Assembly (NCBI RefSeq): GCF_004745955.1
Contig: NZ_SRLD01000007.1
Span: forward strand, 62,001 to 126,000
Direction of reading: 5' to 3'
DNA from: Hymenobacter elongatus
GTDB taxonomy: Bacteria > Bacteroidota > Bacteroidia > Cytophagales > Hymenobacteraceae
Length of the DNA stretch: 64,000 bases
A model generated the notes under the pieces. It did no database searches. It saw only the letters and a list, made by a program, of their open reading frames with translations, and was not told where the DNA came from. Position 1 is the first letter of the stretch, and every line of letters starts with the position of its first letter. The translations under genes and the position numbers were made by a program. Of the stretch, positions 59,703-61,774 are shown piece by piece.

Positions 59703-59910
59703 GGTGGAGAAAGGGCAACAGGAGGAAGACCAAGAAGATGTTGGTACTCGCTCGCAGGGCAGCCAAGAGTGCCCTGCAAGCTACGAAATACGCAATTCAG
59801 GCGCAAACCCGGCCGGGCGTCTGGGCTGGCGCAGGGCGGGACACTGGAAACGAAGCCTCCCCCCGAAACCGCTCTGATTTTCCTTAAGCGGCACAGCAAC
59901 GACTTACCAC

Positions 59911-59974
59911 TGGCGCGGCAGTGAGGGTACAACCTCCACGGTAAGGTGAGCCACGAGCGACAAGCTCGCGCCAG
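59911..59974. repeat. 64-bp repeat C, copy 1
   Basis: From TGGCGCGGCAGTGAGGGTAC to CAAGCTCGCGCCAG. The ends TGGCGCG/CGCGCCA are inverted, and a second copy lies at 61618. Confidence 0.75.
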
Positions 59975-60045: not shown

Positions 60046-61260
60046 TCATTTACGGGCCTTCTTACGCATGGGCGTGGCACTGGCCATGGACGAGGACACG
60101 AGCTGGCCATTTCGCACAATTGCCTTGCCGTCTATTTCTACCGTAGCGTTGGCAATTGCAAATGAGTAGCCCCCGGCCGACTTGTTCTGGCCACCCTGTA
60201 ATTCATTGTCGCCAATGCCCAGATAGACCATGCCCGCGGCGGTGCTTGGGTTGTAGCCCTTGTCTTCCTGGGGCTTCATCACTGGGTTCAGACCGATGGA
60301 AAAGGTGCTGATCTGCATAGCCGCGGCGTCGTAGGCCCCCATCCACTGCTGGAAGGTTTCAGCGCCCGCATCGGCCCGTACGTTGGTCAGCTTGCCGCCT
60401 TGCAGGTCGGCTTTGAAGCCCTTCAGGGGCTTACCAGTCAGCGTGCCGGTGGCCGCGGCCAGCGTGCCCGTGGCCGATGTTTCGTCCACGCTCCCGTAGA
60501 TCAACCCACCGGGCAGGCGGGCCGTGCGGTTATACACAAGCTTTTCCTGCTGATCGGTGGCCGACACCACGCCGTCGTCGGCGAATACCGGACGCGCGCC
60601 CAGCTGCAGGGTCAGGTCGGTGCCCGAGGGCGAAGTAACGCGCATTTTCTTACCCGCCGACAGGACCTGTTTCAGCTGCTGCGCCTGCGCCGCCACGGCC
60701 GCATAGTCGGTACCGATGCCGGCCCAGACCATCTGCTCGTAGCCGGCAAAATCCAGCTGCTGATTAGCGGCGAAGCTCTTGCTGGGGTAGCTCACGAACA
60801 CGCCCCGCAGCTTGCTGGCGTCAAGCTTCTGGGTGAATCCGCTCTCGGCATTGACCTGGGCAAACTTCGCATTGCGGGCCGGGCTCATGCCGTCCATCAC
60901 GGCGCGGGAGTCTTCGTTTTGGGGCAGCGAAATCAGTACATCGGCCTGCAGCATCCAGTTGTTGCTTTTCTCCGGCATAATCGCCGCCTCCGGCATTTCC
61001 ATGTTGATCGTCCGCTCCACTTTGTCGGTGGTCATCATCATTGTCGGCTGACCACCCGTGCGGGCTACTTCCACGGCCACGGCCTCCATCAAGGGCAGCG
61101 TGTGCTTGCCGCCGGTGATGATGACGGCATCCCCCGCCTTCACCCCGGCCGACGTGTTGACAATCTGCTTGGCCATCTGCTCGTAATTCTGCCCGCACAC
61201 CGGGCCCGCTGCCAGCAGCAAACCCATCAAACAACCTGTTAATACATCACGGCTTCCCAT
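60046..61260 (-). CDS. M29-like aminopeptidase-family protein, metal ligands apparently lost
   Basis: 404 residues with signal peptide LTGCLMGLLLAAGPVCGQ, so periplasmic or lipid-anchored. The N-terminal half (VNTSAGVKAGDAVIITGGKH, LMEAVAVEVARTGGQPTMMM) and the whole order of blocks match thermophilic-type M29 aminopeptidases. In active members the second half supplies metal ligands in GExF, GE/AELGIG, VHIALG and HxD motifs. Here the equivalent places read PGGLIYGS, STFSIGLNP, GMVYLGIGDN and GGYSFAIANATVEIDG, with Leu, Phe, Tyr and Phe in the ligand positions. It probably no longer hydrolyses peptides and may bind them or have a new role. The loss is judged by eye from motifs. Confidence 0.7.
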   Translation of the reverse strand: MGSRDVLTGCLMGLLLAAGPVCGQNYEQMAKQIVNTSAGVKAGDAVIITGGKHTLPLMEAVAVEVARTGGQPTMMMTTDKVERTINMEMPEAAIMPEKSNNWMLQADVLISLPQNEDSRAVMDGMSPARNAKFAQVNAESGFTQKLDASKLRGVFVSYPSKSFAANQQLDFAGYEQMVWAGIGTDYAAVAAQAQQLKQVLSAGKKMRVTSPSGTDLTLQLGARPVFADDGVVSATDQQEKLVYNRTARLPGGLIYGSVDETSATGTLAAATGTLTGKPLKGFKADLQGGKLTNVRADAGAETFQQWMGAYDAAAMQISTFSIGLNPVMKPQEDKGYNPSTAAGMVYLGIGDNELQGGQNKSAGGYSFAIANATVEIDGKAIVRNGQLVSSSMASATPMRKKARK

Positions 61261-61774
61261 TGCAGTAGGGTTGAAGGTGAAAAATTAGCCGTTCAAGACA
61301 GCCACTCGCAGCTGGCCTCCCCGAACGGCTATGGGCCCCAACTGTCCAGCAGCAAAGCGTTATGTCGCCCTGAGCTATATAACAAGTTAAATATTATATA
61401 TAGTAAAAACATTATAGCAAGGACAGCTTCTTTTGCCCCCCCGCTGGAGATGCCCATGGGGTTTTCGCCCCGGAACCCGTTAGAACAGTGTATGGACCGG
61501 TGCGGATGATTTGCGCCTGTGACGCGGCGCCAGTAGATCACGCGTCCCCGACGCCCGCCCGCCGGAACGAAAAGCGCCACCCCGGTTTCCTGAGGCGGCG
61601 CGGTATCGGTTTGCTGGTGGCGCGGCAGTGGAATTACAGCCTCCACATCAGGGCTGGTCACGAGCTACCAGCTCGCGCCAGTTGTGGGGATAAGCAGCGG
61701 GTTACCGCTGACGCAGGATTTGAGATACAACCTTTGCTGCAGTATCAAGCACAAGTTCACGTCAGATTATAGCC
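61261..61774. other. Gap with an AT-rich patch and repeat C
   Basis: About 500 bp without a gene. An AT-rich tract (AAATATTATATATAG around 61390) precedes repeat C at 61618-61681. It separates the M29-like gene from the AT-rich nuclease-like gene. Confidence 0.5.
61618..61681. repeat. 64-bp repeat C, copy 2
   Basis: TGGCGCGGCAGTGGAATTAC to CCAGCTCGCGCCAG, the same length as copy 1 and about two-thirds identical by eye, with identical ends. Confidence 0.75.

Follow-up and report, generated by a model that had tools for sequence, protein, structure and literature searches.

Hymenobacter elongatus encodes a real, conserved variant of the M29 aminopeptidase fold that lacks the metal ligands of the family. 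The protein is specified by a single ATG-started open reading frame of 404 codons in the window, i.e., the whole stretch of 64,000 nucleotides that was analysed:

60046..61260, minus strand: gene of the ligand-free M29-fold protein, stop codon included (open reading frame, PF02073 match, AlphaFold2 model and fold matches)

The product scored 68.6 bits on the Pfam model Peptidase_M29 (PF02073), whose cut-off is 27, and matched no NCBIfam model at E values up to 1. An earlier note on this DNA had already assigned it to the M29 family, and the predicted fold and the order of its motifs agree with that assignment.

The published catalytic motif of M29 aminopeptidases is EEHYHD, described as essential for the activity of LmAmpII in the consulted portion of PMC7023490. 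According to both MAFFT and hhalign, all six of these residues are absent from the window protein, and their places are taken as follows:

60502..60504, minus strand: L253 instead of the first metal-binding Glu (MAFFT, hhalign)
60304..60306, minus strand: T319 instead of the second metal-binding Glu, given earlier as Phe320 (MAFFT, hhalign, HMM alignment to NicX)
60223..60225, minus strand: Y346 instead of the first metal-binding His (MAFFT, hhalign)
60202..60204, minus strand: E353 instead of the EEHYHD Tyr (MAFFT, hhalign)
60169..60171, minus strand: G364 instead of the HxD His, given earlier as Tyr365 (MAFFT, hhalign, HMM alignment to NicX)
60163..60165, minus strand: S366 instead of the HxD Asp, given earlier as Phe367 (MAFFT, hhalign, HMM alignment to NicX)

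The register of the ligands was identical by the two aligners (hhalign E 8.7e-33), which rules out misaligned or displaced ligands; for the columns of the second Glu and of HxD, an HMM alignment to NicX led to that register too. Thus the earlier note was right that the expected metal ligands are missing, all five of them. Of the replacements it named, Leu and Tyr were correct, and Phe320, Tyr365 and Phe367 were each one residue off; the loss also goes further than it had stated, since the sixth motif residue, the Tyr, is gone as well. There was no sign that the true ligands lie elsewhere in the chain: besides the agreement of the aligners, none of the His columns reaches 90% conservation in a 20-row set of relatives, which leaves no substitute set of ligands in view. 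Having lost the metal set, this protein cannot act by the M29 mechanism and, if catalysis is the measure, does not count as an M29 peptidase.

The same site is missing from the relatives. The five ligands E, E, H, H, D were present in 45/45 ligand-type Bacteroidota M29 proteins, a set made up of the best-scoring fetched matches (up to 30 per search, duplicates removed) rather than a census, with weak partial PF02073 matches mostly outside the comparison. In the 20-row set, by contrast, His, His and Asp occurred in no row, the first Glu in one (G336) and the second Glu in one (G203), implying that the loss is more than chance. In a larger set of 27 rows, His, His and Asp were again absent throughout, the first Glu was found in 1/27 (G336) and the second in 5/27, namely G203 and four Acidobacteria/Bryobacterales rows. 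Of these rows, 21 have lost all five usual positions and the remaining six have lost four or more.

Among the Hymenobacter rows, the former ligand columns were more variable than most (61st-94th percentile), meaning that no fixed new residue has come in their place, and the segments LPGG, FSIGLNP, AAGMV and NATV were invariant in all 13 rows. This combination fits a protein whose catalysis was lost and whose scaffold was kept. As to the conservation of the substituted positions across relatives, raised in the earlier note, the aligned sequences indicate that it is the loss that is common to the whole clade; the particular replacement residues are not conserved.

Some rows were treated specially in these counts. 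Seven of the loci fetched for the ligand-type set (L015, L016, L018, L085, L087, L090 and L092) were left out because the longest-ORF rule took the wrong frame; L016, read in its proper frame, keeps the metal ligands. The frameshifted H. qilianensis copy described below is absent from the 20- and 27-row tables, the second copy of genome G031 entered with the part after its TGA codon, and the H. glacialis copy has a start without ATG that was set by eye. Before duplicates were removed, the ligand-type set held 50 rows, which were used for the hydrophobicity and hhalign comparisons.

An AlphaFold2 model built on the 20-row alignment had a mean pLDDT of 87 and a pTM of 0.84, with pLDDT below 50 at residues 1-23 and 391-404. 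Its best Foldseek matches were AmpS (E 2.5e-21), PepS and AmpT (E 1.1e-19 to 4.5e-19) and NicX, with CgnE far behind. VIA-align gave Z scores of 29.8 for PepS (4ics), 29.7 for AmpS, 29.5 for AmpT, 28.2 for NicX and 27.4 for PepS (4icr), then 12.2 for CgnE and 11.3 for CgnB, the next best row having Z 7.2; the scores of 29.5-29.8 extended over 354-356 residues for 4ics, 4icq, 1zjc and 2ayi. The two programs bear out the two-domain M29 fold of the model (Z about 29.7 to PepS, AmpS and AmpT). A phmmer search of the PDB with the window protein gave weak matches only, with NicX (7cn3) at E 0.021 among PDZ matches scoring alike.

The N-terminus is of the export type:

61189..61260, minus strand: likely export signal, codons 1-24, ...PVCGQ/NYEQ, cut site guessed (hydrophobicity comparison, low pLDDT)

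A hydrophobic start of this kind was found in 22/22 clade members checked, the lowest hydrophobicity being 1.84, as against a maximum of 1.65 in the ligand-type rows (n = 50), in a comparison that was not blind because we chose the starts of the members and took the first Met for the ligand-type rows. The window protein is thus probably exported, in keeping with the signal peptide and secretion proposed earlier.

Profile searches found members of the clade in 13/120 Hymenobacter genomes, and PF02073 matches in the genus were confined to these same genomes. Its own genome has no other PF02073 match (E <= 0.001), so the window protein has no active copy to be paralogous to, contrary to what the earlier note had supposed. 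Of 390 genomes sampled from the order, 12 gave matches at E <= 0.001. Full-length matches came from seven of them (five Hymenobacter, plus G203 and G475); the remaining five, all weak (G453, G512, G533, G556 and G621), were kept out of the member set. A sample of the phylum gave matches at E <= 1e-30 in 10/395 genomes, six to ligand-free proteins and four to short ligand-keeping ones.

When the contigs of named genomes were scanned with the alignment as the query, 19 loci were recovered: seven from Hymenobacter, one from Rhodocytophaga aerolata, one each from a Rhodothermia and a Rhodothermales MAG, three from Gemmatimonadetes MAGs, five from Acidobacteria/Bryobacterales MAGs and one encoding a ligand-keeping Bacillales protein. 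The same kind of scan with the single window protein as the query found no relative, and none was matched in viral contigs. The literature searches made found no paper on this clade.

In a maximum-likelihood tree, a branch with 98/92 support set the 27 ligand-free rows apart from all others, a split recovered in 100% of 200 bootstrap trees; Bryobacterales L133, a near copy of L132, was kept out of the trees. Besides NicX, the nearest branch comprised four short M29-like proteins and a single further row with the ligands. The root was placed at the midpoint and is not fixed, and long branches (G336, NicX and C_L100) make the deep branching order less sure.

As to function, the closest experimental precedent is that of the crocagin proteins CgnB and CgnE. 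By analogy with them we favour, at somewhat better than even confidence, an exported pseudo-aminopeptidase that binds peptides, the same precedent on which the "binding protein" of the earlier note would rest. Such a protein would fold without the metal pair and retain the old M29 substrate cavity, which in the periplasm may accommodate peptides or small molecules resembling them. The peptides might then be presented to other exported peptidases, or perhaps shielded from them. Points against this reading are the patchiness of the gene (13/120 genomes), the two broken copies, and the single Glu kept in the G203/Acidobacteria group and in G336.

It is less probable, though a serious alternative, that the clade is a new enzyme, combining the M29 fold with a new and probably metal-free active site made of clade-specific polar residues (R223, D229, D236, E260 and N352). 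In the 20-row set, eight polar columns reach a conservation of at least 90% (R152, E175, T209, R223, D229, D236, E260 and N352), the five candidate residues being conserved in 18-20 of the 20 rows. These eight columns mostly differ in the ligand-type rows, where R223 is Arg in 16/45. Furthermore, the nearest branch contains a dioxygenase with the M29 fold, NicX, and T209, E260, N352 and T373 are common to both. Because they are shared, these residues may be structural, a role that for T209, E260 and N352 is at least as likely as one in an active site. Nor does any usual catalytic set stand out, as conservation across the 20 rows stays below 90% in every His, Cys and Lys column. The iron ligands of NicX are given as His265, Ser302, His318 and Asp320 in the portion of PMC7910607 consulted; the columns of His265, His318 and Asp320, read on a Variovorax record annotated as 2,5-dihydroxypyridine dioxygenase, hold T319, G364 and S366 in the window protein.

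That the protein is some other metal-dependent enzyme or metal-binding protein, with ligands outside the usual positions, seems to us very unlikely. The Glu kept by the Acidobacteria/G203 group would be compatible with it, as would the zinc reported for the peptide-binding relative CgnB in the part of PMC10070186 consulted, but the lack of a conserved His column and the loss of at least four of the five usual positions in every row of the 27 speak against it.

Even less credible is a decaying relic without function. It could account for the patchy presence in Hymenobacter and for the broken copies. Genome G031 has two copies, of which the second (L005:1498-2715) contains one in-frame TGA, and the copy on the H. 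qilianensis plasmid NZ_CP060785.1 (L044:7414-8695 / L046:8001-9159) is split by frameshifts; the kinase gene beside the latter is also in pieces, so that an assembly error is possible. Against decay, dN/dS was at most 0.325 in the 65/78 pairs with finite dS among the 13 intact Hymenobacter genes, although the ratios are rough because the lowest dS was 0.57, near saturation. In addition, 135/364 core positions were invariant across the 13 Hymenobacter rows, and the clade extends to Gemmatimonadetes and Acidobacteria MAGs. With dN/dS at most 0.33 where measurable, the gene is under purifying selection and not decaying, and this selection signal has largely refuted the idea of a relic. An ordinary active M29 aminopeptidase, as implied by the RefSeq label of the H. 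qilianensis copy ("aminopeptidase", GO proteolysis) and by the fold and Pfam match, can be given hardly any credence with the whole EEHYHD motif absent.

In the window, the gene stands alone among the neighbouring open reading frames. Downstream lies a 140-codon open reading frame without a Pfam match; upstream, 514 bases off, are a gene for a 337-residue protein with an HSDR_N match and then one for urocanate hydratase. The open reading frames scanned around the gene gave no Pfam or NCBIfam sign of a RiPP gene cluster, short precursor peptides being outside such a scan. The gene is flanked by direct repeat copies at 59879-59974 and 61586-61681, which are 72% identical and belong to a dispersed intergenic element of about 76-96 bases. 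A 73-base query had 16 matches in the genome, both flanking copies counted; the window holds no further copies, and none was found in the fetched M29-like loci of other species.

Other loci place the gene beside peptidases, which lends weak support to the exported, peptide-binding role. In the Rhodothermia MAG, genes for the M29-like protein, an amidohydrolase and an M13 peptidase stand in a row (the best NCBIfam match of the amidohydrolase being Xaa-Pro dipeptidase, at 112 bits, below the cut-off of 500), and in the Rhodothermales MAG the M29-like gene is followed by an amidohydrolase and a reprolysin-like protein. Three M13 genes follow the M29-like gene in the locus assigned to H. wooponensis and in G838, and an M28 gene follows it in the locus assigned to H. 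coccineus. At other loci the neighbours were sugar oxidoreductases or a beta-helix protein, or followed no consistent pattern; most Hymenobacter loci differ, and no conserved operon was found around the M29-like gene. As a genome has few M13 peptidases (2-5 matches each in the six counted), their two separate co-locations are suggestive, in a test chosen after they had been noticed. Given that the neighbourhood is not conserved and the window gene is alone, the peptidase neighbours are a post hoc observation. Three Hymenobacter loci have PF00144 serine hydrolases close by, two of these loci being apparently one ancestral place, but with 8-22 matches per genome in five genomes this co-location was given no weight. 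A 735-residue open reading frame beside the L107 copy had no Pfam match, and we dismissed it because its translation resembles, to our eye, a spurious frame.

In Rhodocytophaga, a pair of related proteins of 254-284 residues follows each M29-like gene (L113:8403-9945 and L114:1589-3227), directly in L114 and about 1.1 kb away in L113. The two that were scanned had no Pfam match; one that was translated has, in our reading, an exported-type start and a lipocalin-like GTW motif.

Acidobacteria/Bryobacterales MAGs carry a class A beta-lactamase-type domain N-terminal to the ligand-free M29-like domain within one protein (assigned from sequence):

L129:3666-5639: beta-lactamase-type + M29-like fusion
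L130:3314-5281: beta-lactamase-type + M29-like fusion
L132:2878-4845: beta-lactamase-type + M29-like fusion
L133:3043-5010: beta-lactamase-type + M29-like fusion

In L129, PF13354 matched residues 44-300; Pfam detected the beta-lactamase part only, the M29-like part being detected by the clade HMM, and the layout of the other three was read by alignment. An AlphaFold model of the fusion had a mean pLDDT of 39 and was discarded, so that the two-domain layout comes from the primary structure. L131 encodes a shorter version without the beta-lactamase-type domain, and in L130 a gene for a PF00144+DUF3471 serine hydrolase ends at the chosen start of the fusion gene. We offer as speculation, and rate as rather improbable, the wider proposal that the ligand-free clade is a widespread exported peptide-handling family that arose from one loss of the metal site and presents peptides, perhaps from the cell wall, to exported hydrolases, to one of which, a class A beta-lactamase-type serine hydrolase, it would be fused in Bryobacterales.

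Among known systems, AmpS (1zjc), PepS (4icq/4ics) and AmpT (2ayi) have the two-domain fold of the window protein, and ligand-type M29 proteins have its motif order by hhalign; the window protein differs from these enzymes in having no EEHYHD residue and an export-type N-terminus, at 16-18% identity. Short M29-like Bacteroidota proteins of 320-322 residues (L151-L154), which lie in the branch with NicX and are possibly an intermediate M29 subgroup, have also replaced the motif Tyr (by Lys) but, unlike the window protein, keep E, E, H, H, D in 4/4 cases. NicX (2,5-dihydroxypyridine dioxygenase; 7cn3, 7cup) shares the fold, with Z about 28, and is a precedent for its re-use in non-peptidase work; judged by the residues in its iron-ligand columns, the window protein is not a NicX.

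CgnB and CgnE (6zsv, 6zsu) have an M29-related fold, with Z 11.3 and 12.2 against the window model. The consulted portion of PMC10070186 reports that both bind the peptide CgnA, with KD values of 10.5 and 1.8 uM, respectively, that the authors saw no aminopeptidase activity, and that CgnE, in which two ligands are replaced (Glu to Lys and His to Tyr), had no visible metal. CgnE has lost metal ligands, as has the window protein. The same text describes the Cgn proteins as largely devoid of the residues that form the dimer interface at the N-terminus; in its account, a metal-less member is always the second of two copies lying within 2.1 kb. The window gene, in contrast, is single in its genome, and its ligand-free product is probably exported, so that it is not a CgnE as described. 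Moreover, the model aligns with PepS over 356 residues and with CgnE over 258, suggesting that the classical M29 body is present in the window protein. There is, then, a multi-phylum clade of proteins that cannot use the M29 mechanism, at least one of which RefSeq calls an "aminopeptidase" with the GO term "proteolysis", and the role of an M29 cavity without metal becomes testable on a single protein. After CgnE, this clade is a second, separate case of the M29 fold outlasting the loss of its metal site and, unlike CgnE, it is probably exported and has the full two-domain body.
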